Source of the DNA: Halorubrum trapanicum | GTDB taxonomy: Archaea > Halobacteriota > Halobacteria > Halobacteriales > Haloferacaceae | DNA length: 64,000 bases | Direction of reading: 5' to 3' | Assembly (NCBI RefSeq): GCF_017873555.1 | Contig: NZ_JAGGKE010000006.1 | Span: forward strand, 124,001-188,000 | Shown: piece by piece, positions 6,074-31,071 of the stretch | Layout of the letters: every line of letters begins with the position of its first letter | How positions within the stretch are numbered: the first letter of the stretch is position 1 | Program-made: the position numbers and the translations under genes | Notes under the pieces: generated by a model | Databases searched by the model: none | The model's input: only the letters and a program-made list of their open reading frames with translations | What the model was told of the DNA's origin: nothing

Positions 6074-7189
6074 CTACCGCCGAATCCCGTCGAGGTCGTC
6101 GAGGAACGCCCGCAGCGTCGACCGCGTCACGTGCGGCATACACACCACGCGGAGCTCTCCGCTTCCGGTCCGCGACACCTTCCAGCCCGCGTCGCGGAGC
6201 GCCGCGAACTCCGACTCGGGGACGTCGGCCGCGACGAGCGGGAGCTCGGGGTCGACGGCGTCGTATCCGCGGTCCGCAAGTTCGGCGGCGAGCCAGTCGG
6301 CGTTGTCGGCTGCGCGCTCGGCGGCCTCGCGGTAGCCGTCGGGCCACAGCGCGTCCATCGCCGCGACGGCGCCCGCGACGCCCGCACCGCTCCGCGTTCC
6401 GGTCAAGGTCGCCTGCGACCGGGACTCCAGGTACGGCGTGTCGACCGCGAGCGCGTCGAGTGCGGCGTCTTCGCGGGCCAACAGGCCGCCCGCCGGCACC
6501 GGCGCCTGCCCGAACTTGTGGGGGTCGATCGTCAGCGTGTCGACCGGCGCGTCGGCGAACGACCAGTCGCGGTCGGTAAAGGGGAGAATGAACCCGCCCC
6601 ACGCGGCGTCGACGTGAAATTGCGCCTCGACCTCGTCGGCTATCGCCGCCAGCTCCGGGATCGGGTCGACCCGGCCGTACTCTGTGCTGCCGGCGACGCC
6701 GACGACGAGCGCGGTCGCGTCGTCGACCGCGGCCGCGACCGCGTCCGCGTCGGCCCGGTAGTCGTCGTCGAGGGGGACGGTCCGCAGCTCCACCCCGAGC
6801 AGCTCCGCCGCCTTGGTGAACGAGAAGTGCGCGCTCGCCGGTGCGACGACGTTGACCGCGCTCCCGCCGTGCCTGACGCCGCTCCCGGCGCGCCCGTCGT
6901 CGCTCCCGCCGTGGCGGTTCCGGGCCGACCGCACCGCCTGAACGTTCGCTTCGGTACCGCCGGAGGTGACGTACCCCGCGGCGCGCTCCGGATCCGGGTG
7001 GTCCGCGAGCGTCGCGAGCCGCTCGACCGCGCGCGCCTCCAGGTCCGCCACCGCCTCGTAGGTGGCGGGGTCGCCCGGGTTCGTCGCGAGGAACCGCTCG
7101 GCGGCCGCGCGGGCGTCCGGGTGCGGCTCGGTACACATCGAGGAGAGCACCCGGTCGAACGACTGCGGCTCCGGTTCCGGCTGACGCAT
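6074..7189 (-). CDS. mfnA: L-tyrosine/L-aspartate decarboxylase, PLP-dependent (MfnA family)
   Basis: A 371-residue group II PLP decarboxylase. The Schiff-base lysine is in [10 protein letters not shown] (Lys225), with the cofactor Asp in [10 protein letters not shown] and the substrate-side [15 protein letters not shown]. In archaea this family makes tyramine for methanofuran or beta-alanine from aspartate for coenzyme A. A haloarchaeon lacks methanofuran, so aspartate decarboxylation is the likelier role by inference. Residues 92-109 form a Gly/Asp-rich insert containing RHGG twice, probably a surface loop. Start ATG 7189 matches the expected N-terminus. It ends directly at repeat copy A. 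Confidence 0.9.
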
Positions 7190-23912: not shown

Positions 23913-25916
23913 TCATCCGCTCGACCGGGGGTCGACGTACGCCTCGACCAGCTTCCGCTCGGCCGCGCGGAGGTGCTGGTGGAACGTCTGCCGGGTGATC
24001 CCCATCCGCTCCGCGATCTCCGAGCCGTCGACCGGCCGCGGCCACTCGAAGTAGCCGTTCAGCTCGGCGGTTTTCAGCGCCGCGCGCTGCCGCTCGGTGA
24101 GCCGCTCGTCGACCGCCGCCGCGAACTCCGCGACGGTGCGGTCGCGGCTCTCGCGCTCGACGCGCGACCGGAGTTCGACGCCGTCGTACTCGTCGCGGAA
24201 CACGTCGAGGATCGACCGGACGTCGCGCTCGGGCGGCGCCTCGATCGTCAGCGTCGCCGCGTCCGCCGTGGCGGTCGCCTCCGTGACGACGCCGCCGTGG
24301 TCGGCCAGCCGCGCGAGCGGCGGCGACTCGGTGACGGTGACGGCGAAGCTGACGCCGTCGTTCGTCTCCGAGACCGGCCGCACCGACTCGACGAGCGGCA
24401 GTTCCGGCAGCTCGCCGAGGTCCACGTTGCCGCCGTCGACTCGGAAGTACAGCTCGCCGGCGTCGTCGTCGAGCCGCGTCGTCCCGAGGTGCTCGACCTC
24501 CTCGCCGACCGCGTCGGCGATCCGCGTGAGCGACGACGCCGGATCGCGGATCTCCACGACGATCTCGCAGACGCGGTCGGTGGTGAGGATCCGCGTCGTC
24601 TCGACCGAGTGGAGACCGTTGGCGATCATCTTGCCGACCGACTCGCACACCTTCCGCTCCCGGCGGTCGAGGACGTTCGCGCCGTTCCCGTAGATACCCA
24701 ACACCCCGTACCGGCGCTTCCCGTACGTGAGCGGGACGACGAGCAGCTGCGTCCCGCCGGCGGACTCCGGCGAGAGCAGGCCGCCGTCGCCCCCCTCTAT
24801 CGACCCGCCCTGAAGCTCCTCCGTCTCGATCGCCTCCCGGACCTCGGCCGGCGTCTCCTCGACGTCGAGCGTCGTTCCCGGCTCGACCCGCACCCCGCTC
24901 GCGGCGCTGATCTCGAAGCGCCCGGTCGCCGAGGAGACCTCCCCGATCCACGCGCCGGCGTACCCCGGCTCGTCGGCGACGACCTCGCAGACGCGCTCCG
25001 GGATGACCTCGGGGTCCCAGTTCTCGACGAGGATCCGGCTGATCTCGCTGAGGAGACCGTTCACCCGACCGAGGAGCCTGTCGAGCGCCCGGCGCTCCGT
25101 CGCGAGCTTCTTCGCCCGCTCCTCGGCGAGCCGCTCCGCCTCCTTCCGCTCGCTGACGTCGTTCTGGAACCCGACGTAGTGGGCCAGATCCCCCTCCTCG
25201 TCGTAGACGGGGGCCACCGTCAGCTCGTTCCAGAAGGGGGTTCCGTCGCGCCGGTAGTTGCGGATCTCGACGGTCACCTGCTCCTCGTTTCCGATCGCCT
25301 CCGCGACCTCCTCGACGGTCTCCGGGTCCGTCCCCGGCCCTTGGAGGAACCGGGGGTTCCGCCCGAGAGCCTCCTCGACCGGGTAGCCGGTGTGTTCCTC
25401 CCACGCGCCGTTGACGTACACGAGCGGGTAGTCCGGGAGGTCCGGGTCGCTGATGCTGATCCCGATCGGCGCGTCCTCGACGGCCCGCCTCACTTCCGGC
25501 GCGGACGGCTCGTGGTCGGAGACGTCCTGTCGCGGCTCCGCGGCGGTCGTCCCCGAGGCGACCGCGGAGACGTCGGCGACGAGCCGCTCGATCGACGCCG
25601 ACCCGTTCTTCCGGAGGAACCGGTCGACGCCGCTCTCGAAAGCCGCCTCCGAAAGGCCCTCCTCGTCCGTCTCGGTGAACATCACGACCGGCACGCCGGC
25701 GTCGGCCTCCTCGATCGCGGTCGCCAACGCGATGCCGTCGTCGCCGGCCAGCGCGTACTCGCTGACGACGCAGTCGTACTCGCCCGTCGTCGCCTTCGCG
25801 ACCGCGGACGCCGCGGTCTCCGTGCGCGTCACGTCGAACCCCGCGGCGTCGAGCGCCGACCGGATCCGATCGCTTCCCTCGTCCGGATGGACGAGCAGAG
25901 TCCGAGCGTTCGCCAT
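23913..25916 (-). CDS. bat: Bat-like regulator: pseudo-receiver, PAS, GAF and HTH_10 domains
   Basis: A 667-residue protein. Residues 1-118 fold as a receiver, but the phospho-acceptor position is Glu53 (VVSEYALAGDDG) while Thr and Lys of the switch are kept (MFTET, FLRKNG). Next come a PAS domain (about 160-270, GISISDPDLPDYPLVYVNGAWEEHTGYP), a coiled linker, a GAF domain (about 300-440), a bacterio-opsin-activator middle domain, and a C-terminal HTH_10 (LTERQRAALKTAELNGYFEWPRP..ITRQTFHQHLRAAERKL). This is the architecture of Bat, which senses oxygen and light and activates bop. Its position 2.6 kb from bop supports that role, but paralogues exist, so the symbol is tentative. Confidence 0.78.
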   Translation of the reverse strand: MANARTLLVHPDEGSDRIRSALDAAGFDVTRTETAASAVAKATTGEYDCVVSEYALAGDDGIALATAIEEADAGVPVVMFTETDEEGLSEAAFESGVDRFLRKNGSASIERLVADVSAVASGTTAAEPRQDVSDHEPSAPEVRRAVEDAPIGISISDPDLPDYPLVYVNGAWEEHTGYPVEEALGRNPRFLQGPGTDPETVEEVAEAIGNEEQVTVEIRNYRRDGTPFWNELTVAPVYDEEGDLAHYVGFQNDVSERKEAERLAEERAKKLATERRALDRLLGRVNGLLSEISRILVENWDPEVIPERVCEVVADEPGYAGAWIGEVSSATGRFEISAASGVRVEPGTTLDVEETPAEVREAIETEELQGGSIEGGDGGLLSPESAGGTQLLVVPLTYGKRRYGVLGIYGNGANVLDRRERKVCESVGKMIANGLHSVETTRILTTDRVCEIVVEIRDPASSLTRIADAVGEEVEHLGTTRLDDDAGELYFRVDGGNVDLGELPELPLVESVRPVSETNDGVSFAVTVTESPPLARLADHGGVVTEATATADAATLTIEAPPERDVRSILDVFRDEYDGVELRSRVERESRDRTVAEFAAAVDERLTERQRAALKTAELNGYFEWPRPVDGSEIAERMGITRQTFHQHLRAAERKLVEAYVDPRSSG

Positions 25917-26123: not shown

Positions 26124-28187
26124 ATGAGCGTGCGCGTCCCGGTCCGGGAGCCGCCCACGTCGGTCCCCGGGGACCGCGTCGGTCTCCCCGAGTCCCTCCT
26201 CGCGGACCTCGGGGTCGGTCTCGGCGACTCGGTCGCCGTCGAGGACGCGCACCGCGTCGTCGCCCCGGTCGTCGCGGTCGACGACGGTGAGCGGGCCGTC
26301 TTCCTCCCGGAGCGACTCCGCCGGACCGCCGGCGTCGAGCCGGGCGAGGTCGCGACCGTGGCGGTCTCGGACCTCCCGGTCGCGTCGTCGGTCACGCTGC
26401 GACTCCGCCAGTCGGTCGATCTGGCGCGGAGCGAGGACGCCATCCGTCGCCGGCTCGACCGACGCGTCGTGGCCGTCGGCGACGAGTTCGATGTCACCCG
26501 CCTCGGCGGCGCCCTCACGCTCCGGTTCGCCGTGCGGGACGTGACCCCCTCGTCGCCCGCCGTCGTCGGCGACGAGACCGAGATCACCGTCGCGGCCGAC
26601 GACGGGAAACCGGCCGTCGTCGCCGAACACCCGGGCGGCGCCGGCGACGAGTTCGTTTCGACGGCGACGTTCGAGCGCCTCCGCGACGCGGTCGCGACCC
26701 GGTTCGACGCCGCCGACACGTTCGAGTCGGCTGGGTACCCGACGCTGGGACTGCTCCTCCACGGGCCGCGCGGGTCGGGGAAGACGACGCTCGTCGAGAC
26801 CGTCGCGGCCGCGACCGGCGCGACGCTCGTCCGCGCCTCAGCGGCCCGGATTCGGGGCGAGCGGGCCGGCGACCGGGCGGACCGGCTCGACCGCGTCGTC
26901 GAGACCGTTCAGGAGAGCGAAGCGACCGTCGTCCTCCTCGACGACCTCGAGGCGCTCGGGACCGACGACGGGGGCGGGTCCGCGCTGGCCGACCGGTTCC
27001 GGGCGACGATCGACGAACTCCGCGCCGGGGACCGAACCGTCGTGATCGGCGCGACGACCGACCCGAGCGGCGTGCCGTCGGCGCTGCGCCGCGGCGGGCG
27101 GTTCGACCGCGAGATCGGGGTCGAACCGCTGACGCCCGCGGAGCGGCGGGACGCGCTCGAAACGCTCTGCGAGGGCGCGCCGCTCGCGATGGACGTCGAC
27201 TTCGAGTCGGTCGCCTCGCGGCTCAACGGCTACGTGTTCGCCGATCTGGCCGTCCTCGCGGACGCGGCGCTGGAGCGGGCGGTCCGGCGCGACGGCCGGA
27301 CCGCGATCCGGATGGCCGACTTCGACGCCGCGCTCGACGACGTCGAGCCGACCGGGCTCCGGGAGGTCACGGTCGAGTTCCCCGCGGTCGGCTGGGACGA
27401 GGTCGGCGGGCTGGAGGAAGCGAAACGCGAGCTGGTGCGCGCGGTGTACTGGCCGCTGGAGTACGCCGACCGCTTCGCGGAGCTGGGGATCGACCCCCCG
27501 TCCGGCGTGCTGCTGTACGGGCCGCCGGGGACCGGGAAGACGCTGCTCGCGCGGGCCGCGGCGAGCCTCAGCGACGCGAACTTCATCCCGGTGAACGGAC
27601 CGGAGCTGCTCGACAAGTACGTCGGCGCGAGCGAGCAGGCGGTCCGCGACCTGTTCGCCACGGCGCGCGAGAACGCGCCGGCGGTGGTCTTCTTCGACGA
27701 GGTCGACGCCGTTTCGCCGAAGCGCCGCGGCGACGACACGGGCGCCGGCGAGCGCGTCGTGTCACAGCTGCTGACCGAACTCGACGGGCTGGAGCCGCTG
27801 ACCGACGTCGTGGTGATCGCGGCGACGAACCGCCCGGACAGCATCGACGAGGCGCTGCTCCGGCCGGGTCGGATCGAGAAGATGGTCGAGACGCCGCTCC
27901 CGGACCGCGACGCGCGCCGCGAGATTCTCGGGATTCACGCGCGGGAGACCCCGGTCGCGTCCGGCGTCGACTTCGACTCGCTCGCCGACCGCACCGGCGG
28001 GTACAGCGGCGGCGACCTCGCGGCGCTGGTCCGGGAGGCCGGGCTGCTCGCGATCGAGGACGCGATCGTCGACGACGGGCCGCCGGTCGAGCCGACGGTC
28101 GGGCGCGACCACTTCGAGCGCGCCCTCGCCGAGACCTCGCCCTCGACCCGTGACGGCCGCGACGACGCCGGTCTTCCGGACGAGTAG
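26124..28187 (+). CDS. CDC48/VCP-like AAA ATPase with a non-canonical first ATPase domain
   Basis: A 687-residue protein. Residues 1-170 form the CDC48 N domain (REPPTSVPGDRVGLPESLLADLGVGLGDSVAVED is the double-psi barrel). D1 (about 210-400) has Walker A GPRGSGKTT and Walker B VVLLDDLEAL, where the catalytic Glu is Asp. D2 (about 415-660) is canonical with GPPGTGKT, FFDEVDA, AATNRPD and the arginine-finger GR. Such unfoldases extract proteins for degradation or remodelling. D1 divergence suggests that D2 does the mechanical work. The gene is divergent from bat and ends 20 bp from the convergent small membrane gene of the bop cluster. Confidence 0.9.
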   Translation: MSVRVPVREPPTSVPGDRVGLPESLLADLGVGLGDSVAVEDAHRVVAPVVAVDDGERAVFLPERLRRTAGVEPGEVATVAVSDLPVASSVTLRLRQSVDLARSEDAIRRRLDRRVVAVGDEFDVTRLGGALTLRFAVRDVTPSSPAVVGDETEITVAADDGKPAVVAEHPGGAGDEFVSTATFERLRDAVATRFDAADTFESAGYPTLGLLLHGPRGSGKTTLVETVAAATGATLVRASAARIRGERAGDRADRLDRVVETVQESEATVVLLDDLEALGTDDGGGSALADRFRATIDELRAGDRTVVIGATTDPSGVPSALRRGGRFDREIGVEPLTPAERRDALETLCEGAPLAMDVDFESVASRLNGYVFADLAVLADAALERAVRRDGRTAIRMADFDAALDDVEPTGLREVTVEFPAVGWDEVGGLEEAKRELVRAVYWPLEYADRFAELGIDPPSGVLLYGPPGTGKTLLARAAASLSDANFIPVNGPELLDKYVGASEQAVRDLFATARENAPAVVFFDEVDAVSPKRRGDDTGAGERVVSQLLTELDGLEPLTDVVVIAATNRPDSIDEALLRPGRIEKMVETPLPDRDARREILGIHARETPVASGVDFDSLADRTGGYSGGDLAALVREAGLLAIEDAIVDDGPPVEPTVGRDHFERALAETSPSTRDGRDDAGLPDE

Positions 28188-28502: not shown

Positions 28503-29279
28503 TCAGTCCGCGGCGGAGGCCTCGGCGCCGGCGGACGGCTCCGGCGCCCCGGTGTCGCCGAGGATGGCGCGGCTGCGGAGCAGGATGAAGCCGAAGCCGA
28601 CCTTGGCCGTCACGTCGAGAACCATGAACAGGAGGGTCTCGATGCCGAGACCGACGACGCCGGCACCCTCAGTGCCGATGATCCACAGGATCGGGTAGGC
28701 CGTCCAGAGGACCAACACCAGCGCGGTCAACGTGTTGAACGTGCTCTGGACGTCGGCCGAGCGCTGCTTCGCCGCGCTGCGGAGGCTCGTGGCGAGGAAG
28801 TACAGCACGACGATCATGCAGATCGTGCTGAACAGCCACCAGGAGTACCGCGCGACCGCCGTGTGCGAGAGCGCGCCGACGAGACCGGTGACGATCATCA
28901 GCGCGTCGACGCCGACGAGCGTCCCGATGGTCACGCGGTCGACCTTCGCGAGCAGCGCGAGGTCGAGCAGCAGCAGCGGCGTGGTGAACAGCCAGTCCGC
29001 GTACCGCGCGTAGTAGATGTCGAGCATCTCGCCGCCGACCTGGACCTCCGTCAGGCCGATGCCGAAGAACATCGACAGGTACGCCGCCGACGCGATCCCC
29101 GGCACGAGGATCGTAATCGCGTAGTACTCACGGGCCTCCTTGTCCGTCACGCCCCAGCCGCGGGCGATGAAGTAGAAGGTCCCGAGGAGCATCAGTAGCG
29201 TTCCGATACCCAACCACAGCGTCTCGGGGCGTCCGTCCCCGAGCAGGTCGTATCCCGCCGTTAGCGCTATCGGATCCAT
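28503..29279 (-). CDS. bop: Bacteriorhodopsin, light-driven proton pump
   Basis: From ATG 29279 the product has 258 residues and seven helices. All proton-pump residues align with Halobacterium bacteriorhodopsin at a +10 offset: Arg92 and Asp95 in [12 protein letters not shown] (Arg82, Asp85), Asp106 (Asp96, the proton donor), Asp125 (Asp115), Glu204 and Glu214 (Glu194, Glu204, proton release), Asp222 and the retinal Lys226 in [10 protein letters not shown] (Asp212, Lys216). The C-terminal tail [14 protein letters not shown] is also shared. An in-frame ATG at 29324 would add [15 protein letters not shown], but the TATA box lies inside that stretch, so 29279 is the leaderless start. Confidence 0.97.
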
Positions 29280-29297
29280 ACCCACATCATGATACAG

Positions 29298-29335
29298 TAT
29301 ATATTCTATTGAGATCGATGCCAACCCAGTCAGGT
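29298..29335 (-). promoter_or_regulatory. bop promoter: TATA box and UAS-like element
   Basis: On the bop strand AATATATA (29305-29298) lies about 23 nt before ATG 29279, giving a leaderless or nearly leaderless message as in Halobacterium bop. Sixteen bp further upstream is ACCTGACTGGGTTGG (29335-29321). This resembles the bop UAS consensus ACCcnactagTTnG that responds to Bat, with one extra base in the centre. Its place, about -42 to -56 from the start, agrees with the known UAS position. Binding by Bat is inferred. Confidence 0.7.
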
Positions 29336-29457
29336 ATCGCCGTCGCCGGACGCTCGCTTACGGAAGCGCCTCGACCGTCGCCGCCGGCGTCGCAGCCTCC
29401 TTCGGGGGAAACGTTGTCGGCCCGAAAGTAATGGGACTGGGGCACCAGGGATCTCAC

Positions 29458-29838
29458 ATGGCCGACGACGACACCGAGGCGGAAGCGGAATCGACCGTCG
29501 AGACCACCGCGGAACGGGAGACGGAGGCGGAGGCGACCGACGACGTCACCATCGACGTGGAGGCGATCGACGCGTACGAGCAGCGCATCGAGGAGCTGTC
29601 GGCCGCGGTCGAGGAGCGCGACGAGACGATCGAGGAGCTCCGGTCGGTCGTCGAGGAGCAGTCGGAACAGATCGACACGCTCGAAAACCAGTTTCTGGAC
29701 CTGTCCGCGCGGGTCGCCGACGGCCGGAACCTCGGCGTCTGCCCCGAGTGTAACGGTCCCACGGAAAAGAAGGAACGGCTCTTCCGGTCGGACACGATCG
29801 AGTGTACGCGCTGCGGCGAAGTGATCCACACGTACTGA
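29458..29838 (+). CDS. Coiled-coil zinc-ribbon protein
   Basis: A 126-residue protein. An acidic Thr/Glu/Ala-rich start is followed by a coiled coil (about residues 34-92: YEQRIEELSAAVEERDETIEELRSVVEEQSEQIDTLENQFLDLSARV), then a zinc ribbon with CPECNG (about 98-103) and CTRCGEVIH near the C-terminus. The earlier in-frame ATG at 29431 adds MGLGHQGSH and is not preferred. The arrangement suggests a dimeric protein that binds nucleic acid or a partner protein. It is divergent from bop and upstream of blh, so it may belong to the retinal-protein locus, but no function can be assigned. Confidence 0.72.
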   Translation: MADDDTEAEAESTVETTAERETEAEATDDVTIDVEAIDAYEQRIEELSAAVEERDETIEELRSVVEEQSEQIDTLENQFLDLSARVADGRNLGVCPECNGPTEKKERLFRSDTIECTRCGEVIHTY

Positions 29839-30018: not shown

Positions 30019-31071
30019 ATGTCGACGTCGACGGCGAGTCCGGTACAGCGGCTACTCGGTGAACCGGAGCGGACGGCCATCGGTGCGTCGCGCGCGGCGT
30101 TGCTCCTGCTCGCGGTCGGTTTCGGGGCGCTGTCCGCGGTCGGCACCGACGTGTCGCTCCGAACGCAGATGATCGCGTACCTCGTCGGGATGGTCGCGCT
30201 GAACCTCCCGCACGGGGGGTACGAACACTTCTCGAACCTCCGCCGGCGGGGACTCCCGTTCGGCGCGCGGTACGTGGGGCTGTACGTCGGCTTCGTCGCG
30301 GCGTTCGTGACCCTGTTCGTCGTCGCGCCGCTGCCCGCGCTGGCGCTCGCGTTCGGGACGGCGGTCGCGAAGGGGGGTCACGGCGACCTGCGCGTGATGG
30401 ACGCCTTGGTCGGCACCGATCACCTGCCGACCCGGCCCCAGCGGGCGCTCGCCGCTCTGGTCCGCGGCGGGGCCGTGATGGTCGTCCCCGCCGTCTTCTG
30501 GACGGACACCTTCTACGGCTTCACCGGCATCATGCTCGGCGTCTTCGACGGGCGGCTGGCTGGTCCCGCCGCCTCGTCGCCGGAGGCGTTCACCACGGCG
30601 CTCGGCGCCGGGTACGGCATCGCAGTACTCGCGCACCTCGGCGGCGGGCTCGCGACCAGCTGGCGCGCGACCGGCGGGATCGGTCGGTCGTGGCTCCTCG
30701 ACGCCGCGGAGACGCTGCTGCTCGTCGCGTACTTCGCGCTCGTGCCCGTGGTCGTCGCGATCGGGCTGTACTTCCCGCTGTGGTACTCGCTGCGCCAGTC
30801 GGCCCGGAGCATGGTCGTCGAGCGCGAGCGCCCCAGCCGGACCGAGGGCGTCTCGCTCGTCGTCGCGTGGGGCGTCCTCGTCGTCGGCGCGCTGGCCACG
30901 GCGACAGTCGCCGTCACCCTGTGGACCGTCGCTCCGAACCCGCTGGCCGGCGGGTCGCTCCTCTCCGGCGCCGTCGCCTTCTACACCATCTTCGTCTGCG
31001 TCATCGCGCTCCCGCACGTCGTGGTCGGGGAGTGGCTCGACTTCGGGCGCGGCATCTGGCACGTTCCCTGA
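30019..31071 (+). CDS. blh: Beta-carotene 15,15'-dioxygenase, Brp/Blh family
   Basis: A 350-residue multi-pass membrane enzyme that cleaves beta-carotene into two retinals, the chromophore for bacteriorhodopsin. The conserved histidines expected to bind iron are visible in LNLPHGGYEHF, KGGHGDLRVMD and CVIALPHVVVGEWLD. About nine hydrophobic segments are present. A TATA box TATAAAA at 29960-29966 predicts a short leader of about 30 nt. Its location 740 bp from bop on the opposite strand is the usual haloarchaeal arrangement and supports joint function. Confidence 0.93.
   Translation: MSTSTASPVQRLLGEPERTAIGASRAALLLLAVGFGALSAVGTDVSLRTQMIAYLVGMVALNLPHGGYEHFSNLRRRGLPFGARYVGLYVGFVAAFVTLFVVAPLPALALAFGTAVAKGGHGDLRVMDALVGTDHLPTRPQRALAALVRGGAVMVVPAVFWTDTFYGFTGIMLGVFDGRLAGPAASSPEAFTTALGAGYGIAVLAHLGGGLATSWRATGGIGRSWLLDAAETLLLVAYFALVPVVVAIGLYFPLWYSLRQSARSMVVERERPSRTEGVSLVVAWGVLVVGALATATVAVTLWTVAPNPLAGGSLLSGAVAFYTIFVCVIALPHVVVGEWLDFGRGIWHVP

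Follow-up and report, generated by a model that had tools for sequence, protein, structure and literature searches.

An upstream element in front of bop

Among archaeal activator sites the bop UAS is a textbook case, defined by mutagenesis in one species. In the 64-kb stretch of Halorubrum trapanicum DNA analysed here (the window), an earlier note had recognised a UAS-like 15-mer upstream of bop and had read it as the Halobacterium element with one extra central base. Does the site carry an inserted base, or is its arm spacing the normal one? Our main reading, to which we give a probability of about 0.72, is that the Halorubrum bop UAS is an 18-bp imperfect inverted repeat (left half TACC..ACT, right half ..G..GGYA) just upstream of the TATA region, with normal spacing and no inserted base, and that it is most likely the site of a Bat dimer. 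The 15-mer, ACCTGACTGGGTTGG, was found as described upstream of bop, in a locus with the following features.

23913-25916, minus strand: bat, gene of the presumed activator (Pfam: response regulator, PAS, GAF, BAT and HTH_10), with helix ITRQTFHQHLRAAERKL
26124-28187: bac (Cdc48-like AAA)
28503-29279, minus strand: bop, bacteriorhodopsin-type proton pump gene (Pfam PF01036 Bac_rhodopsin, E 2.6e-72)
29297-29304, minus strand: ATATATAC, AT-rich stretch beginning at offset 32 from TACC, taken as the TATA box in the earlier note
29306-29312, minus strand: TCAATAG, likely TATA region, at the offset of the AT-rich box of other opsin promoters; all 18 class A promoters (defined below) have AATAG unchanged
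29319-29336, minus strand: bop UAS, 18-bp imperfect inverted repeat with halves TACCTGACT and GGGTTGGCA, identified by profile match and spacing preference; contains the 15-mer at 29321-29335 (minus strand)
29460-29838, plus strand: zinc-ribbon gene, divergent from and adjoining bop (coiled coil, CPEC..CTRC zinc ribbon)
30019-31071: brp/blh-type gene (BCD family)

The names bac, brp and bap are used as in PMC3184054. The divergent zinc-ribbon gene is conserved in most Halorubrum bop loci, and a divergent zinc-finger gene, HQ1015A, is described upstream of bopI in Haloquadratum (PMC5496347). Two more opsin-like genes are present in the genome of the window, at G000:C11:92768-93442 (36% identity to bop) and G000:C6:115974-116651 (33%).

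Searches of the genome (3.08 Mb in 30 contigs) were performed with motif forms of differing stringency. The pattern ACCNNACTNNNTTGG gave a single match, at bop, compared to 0 for the reversed control, which places the bop site beyond chance. The longer pattern ACCTNACTNNGNTGGCATC also had its only full match at bop, and with a symmetric profile and a score of at least 12 the bop UAS was the sole match in the window (score 16.9). When up to one mismatch was allowed, ten genome matches including the bop site were obtained compared to nine for the reversed control; with one perfect match and a one-mismatch count close to the control, a wider regulon marked by the bop motif in this genome was rejected. 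A search with the 14-bp pattern gave five matches, and the looser form ACCNNACTN5GG was found four times in the window compared to 1.72 expected. Looser forms thus arise by chance, but a chance resemblance to the UAS is barely credible for the bop site itself, whose full match is unique in the genome, whose position is fixed and whose letters are almost completely conserved in 18 promoters.

Conservation among Halorubrum bop promoters

Orthologues of bop with 85-95% identity were found in 26 other genomes of the genus (27 of 52 same-genus genomes, including that of the window). The distance from the T of TACC to the start codon is 57 bp in 26 promoters and 58 bp in the remaining one, L028, in agreement with the earlier note, which had the position relative to the start as conserved. 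Eighteen of the promoters read TACCTRACTRGGWTGGCATCGRTCTSAATAG and were termed class A. In the other nine, class B (L012, L016, L018, L023 and L025-L029), the left arm is mostly kept and the right arm is rewritten, the right side reading ATGCTGTGT or other letters. Within class A, 12 of 15 site columns are invariant compared to none of 50 columns at -110 to -60, and the conserved block continues to TSAATAG: of the 30 columns between -57 and -28, 25 are invariant. When classes A and B are pooled, one of the 15 site columns is invariant. A lack of conservation in related bop promoters had been named beforehand as the finding that would speak against the element; the comparison revealed the opposite, because the position of the UAS is conserved in the relatives. 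A longer palindrome, GATACC-N10-GGCATC, was also considered and was dropped because the GA on its left side varies within class A.

Arm spacing in haloarchaeal opsin promoters

In total, 78 opsin promoters were compared, the 27 from Halorubrum and 51 others. The 51 were assigned by hand to a long-spacing group (23 promoters), a Halobacterium-type group (nine, of which seven loci have 77-92% identity to Halobacterium bacteriorhodopsin) and a set of 19 in which no recognisable site was found. Left out before the counts were duplicates (L030-L032, L144, L146, L147, L152 and L155), L089, in which 91 bases of contig precede the bop match, together with L099, L101 and L112, which by eye were without such a site. 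The 23 core long-spacing loci were picked by hand once the motif had been seen, and two of them share one 18-mer, leaving 22 distinct sites. The consensus of this group, and an element common to the opsin promoters of many haloarchaea, is an 18-bp inverted repeat with halves TACCNNACT and AGTNNGGTA, of which Halorussus marinus (L081) has a perfect copy. In 31 sites, 166 complementary pairs were counted compared to 87.6 (sd 22.5) by column shuffle, a partly circular test because the core sites had been hand-picked with the symmetric pattern; two pairs near mid-arm are hardly complementary (0.26).

A uniform search of all 78 promoters found 37 that reach 11 of 14 matches at normal spacing, compared to 0.5% of shuffles, and four each at one base shorter and one base longer (shuffles 0.2% each). 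An excess at a gap of -3 (28 of 78 with at least 11 matches; shuffles 1.6%) was taken as an artefact because the two half-patterns share ACT. A profile was made from the 22 distinct long-spacing sites of other haloarchaea and contains no class A or Halobacterium-type site. This profile preferred normal spacing, without a gap, in all 18 class A sites, and the window site scored 16.7 at normal spacing, 4.5 at one base short and 7.1 at one base long. Across 193,515 bp from 13 class A neighbourhoods, the profile gave exactly one normal-spacing match per neighbourhood, at bop, and none at brp; no short-spacing site was found in these neighbourhoods, and one-base-long matches numbered 3 compared to 1.6 in shuffles. 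In the Halobacterium-type group, the profile preferred a site one base short in seven of nine promoters, L139 and L141 being near ties, and the normal (long) spacing in L142 and L143. The nine Halobacterium-type rows form one supported clade in a bop tree, nested among long-spacing rows, and the short-spacing label requires three changes on this tree. The root of the tree is unsure, as its outgroup, two very long rows, did not come together.

The consensus of the Halobacterium bop UAS is said to have been given by Baliga and DasSarma in 1999 as ACCcnactagTTnG. By hand count, the window site agrees with this consensus at 9 of 12 named positions when ungapped, and at 10 of 12 with one indel when gapped as in the earlier note; ACC, act, g, T and G are kept. 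The last position of the 14-mer published for Halobacterium is reportedly the first G of the right arm, which invites the gapped alignment. From that alignment it was proposed that a 14-bp UAS of the Halobacterium type had acquired one base in its centre, which could have altered its affinity for Bat or gone with a divergent Bat. The one added match and the differing Bat recognition helices of Halorubrum and Halobacterium speak for such a gain. We nevertheless consider it quite improbable: the long spacing is present in all 18 class A and 23 other haloarchaeal promoters, the short form is confined to the nested Halobacterium-type clade, and the loci of that clade contain both spacings. The identical spacing in class A also led us to reject an insertion peculiar to the genome of the window.

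Any indel was probably a loss in the Halobacterium lineage, since the short fit is seen in seven of nine Halobacterium-type promoters, all in one nested clade. The 14-bp Halobacterium UAS may thus be a version that is one base short. Most simply, the long spacing would be the older one, and the Halobacterium lineage would either have lost a central base or have moved its GG by substitution; under either, the window site would be without an insertion. Judged from these alignments, it is a normal, strongly conserved bop UAS, and the peculiarity attributed to it is an effect of alignment.

Several opsin promoters depart from this pattern. L067 has a tandem pair of 18-bp sites (6884-6901 and 6925-6942) in front of a single opsin gene, and bat is directly upstream. 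The 18-bp site is absent upstream of bop in the Haloquadratum-type promoters L153 and L053, and L153 has a different inverted repeat, TACCATC-N7-GATGGGTA, near bop. The site is also missing upstream of bop in L049, L080 and L088, which are related to the Halorubrum bop group and have in common the blocks CTATCGGAGTATCTTTA and GCATGTTTGGGGGTATGG or a close variant. L089 (G227:C1) encodes a bacteriorhodopsin that equals the H. salinarum query at every position from residue 3 onward; its first codons are different and the contig begins a short way upstream, which would look like an insertion element at the start of bop.

The probable TATA region

Downstream of the 15-mer, the gap is 8 bp to TCAATAG and 16 bp to ATATATAC. 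The earlier note had placed the 15-mer 16 bp upstream of the bop TATA; the distance to ATATATAC is as given, but the TATA region is probably TCAATAG, about 8 bp closer to the site. This assignment is by offset homology with other opsin promoters. Counted from the T of TACC, their AT-rich box occupies offsets 24-27 in the long-spacing group and 24-26 in the Halobacterium-type group. In class A, TSAATAG is found at offsets 24-30, its first base being 33 bases upstream of the start codon. ATATATAC would then probably be an AT-rich stretch downstream of the real TATA. In Halobacterium the bop mRNA is leaderless, and for a message of this kind TCAATAG would be the better candidate. The Halobacterium UAS is said to extend from -52 to -39 and the TATA box from -30 to -25, about 8 bp apart.

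Bat proteins and arm spacing

bat is linked to bop in all 14 class A genomes examined besides that of the window. Halorubrum Bats have the helix of the window protein, one reading TYHQHLR, and the Bats linked to the long-spacing promoters L066, L067, L085 and L154 read RSTFHQHLR or RSTYHQHLR. The Halobacterium-type helix is STYHQHLQAAK, compared to HLRAAE, HLRAAQ or HLRTAQ in other Bats; Bats of this type have IVPSTYHQHLQAAK or IVASTYHQHLQAAK, with the single variants HLQSAK and HLQTAK. The earlier suggestion that the altered site goes with a divergent Bat stands in part: the spacing at bop is associated with Bat lineage, an association that rests on about one evolutionary event. It does not extend to L142 and L143, which combine a Halobacterium-type helix with long spacing, or to the nine Halobacterium-type loci as a whole (167,442 bp), in which 12 short and 8 long matches were found compared to 0.6 and 1.0 in shuffles. 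Besides those at bop, some of these matches are located between bop and brp and others between bat and bac, including the following.

L140:15837-15853 and L151:15727-15743: short-spacing inverted repeats in Halobacterium-type loci, located between bat and bac or between bop and brp, candidate Bat sites for adjoining genes
L140:10663-10679 and L151:10578-10594: further repeats of the same kind

Class B bears on the same question. In G140, G155, G113 and G142, bop and bat share a contig at a distance of 49-110 kb from each other, and the class B loci L044 and L045 have a linked bat (65-66%). The unlinked class B Bats (n=7, L169 and L171 being left out of the helix count) are 72-74% identical overall, and the five whose recognition helix was read have it unchanged. 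The nine class B promoters have lost the right arm despite this unchanged helix where it was read. The Bat helix alone therefore explains neither the spacing nor the right arm, and the spacing is not fixed by Bat alone, because Halobacterium-type loci hold both spacings and class B keeps the same helix.

Discussion

Bat is described as the activator of bop in Halobacterium (PMC2253796, PMC3184054). In Halorubrum, a Bat dimer would most likely contact both arms of the repeat through its HTH_10 domain. Acting under low oxygen or light, Bat on the UAS would help TBP/TFB to load at a weak TATA (TCAATAG), and the promoter would yield a leaderless bop mRNA. We infer both Bat binding and activation by the site, as well as the positions of the TATA region and the transcription start, from the promoter comparison. 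Alternatively, Bat could act elsewhere and the conserved block could be read mainly by another factor, be it a Brz-like zinc-finger regulator, the product of the divergent zinc-ribbon gene or a dedicated TFB. The continuation of the block to TSAATAG is what a TFB contact might leave, the right arm differs in class B with the Bat helix unchanged, and Brz is described as acting on bop in Halobacterium (PMC2253796). We regard a different reader of the block as unlikely, given the linkage of bat in every class A locus examined and a search of four Halorubrum genomes that gave no Brz homologue at E <= 0.01; homologues were found in G234 and G077.

The Bat-dimer site proposed here resembles the Halobacterium bop UAS in its gene, its placement before the TATA region, its left arm ACC-N2-ACT and a right arm ending in TTGG, and bat is in the bop neighbourhood in both. 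It differs in a best-fit arm spacing one base longer, in the middle letters and those after GG, and in the recognition helix of Bat. UAS sites are also described at brp and crtB1 in Halobacterium NRC-1 (PMC1447603), elements of the same kind at co-regulated genes, in contrast to the class A Halorubrum neighbourhoods with a profile site at bop only. The denitrification motif of Haloferax mediterranei, CGAAYATDKTYG, is likewise a roughly symmetric haloarchaeal promoter motif, but it has a different sequence and different genes (PMC11218638). Bacterioopsin-activator family regulators are discussed for that regulon, and the introduction of the same paper calls the regulator that binds CGAAYATDKTYG undisclosed.

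The comparison points to a wider symmetric operator with two spacings, for sites that were partly chosen by eye. No paper on a symmetric bop operator was found by title or abstract, and we do not claim that the motif is unpublished. Tentatively, and with somewhat more doubt than belief, the 18-bp repeat may be an ancestral symmetric Bat operator common to haloarchaeal opsin promoters. The Halobacterium UAS would then be a 17-bp derivative that arose with a changed Bat helix and spread to other Bat targets there, and the linked regulon would have shrunk to bop alone in class A Halorubrum. The spacing result also carries a caution, that alignment to a published 14-mer can produce a false insertion. 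Seen as a variant of a broader, apparently symmetric element, the bop UAS would offer a concrete operator model with bases to mutate, and such an element may make the targets of Bat predictable across haloarchaea.
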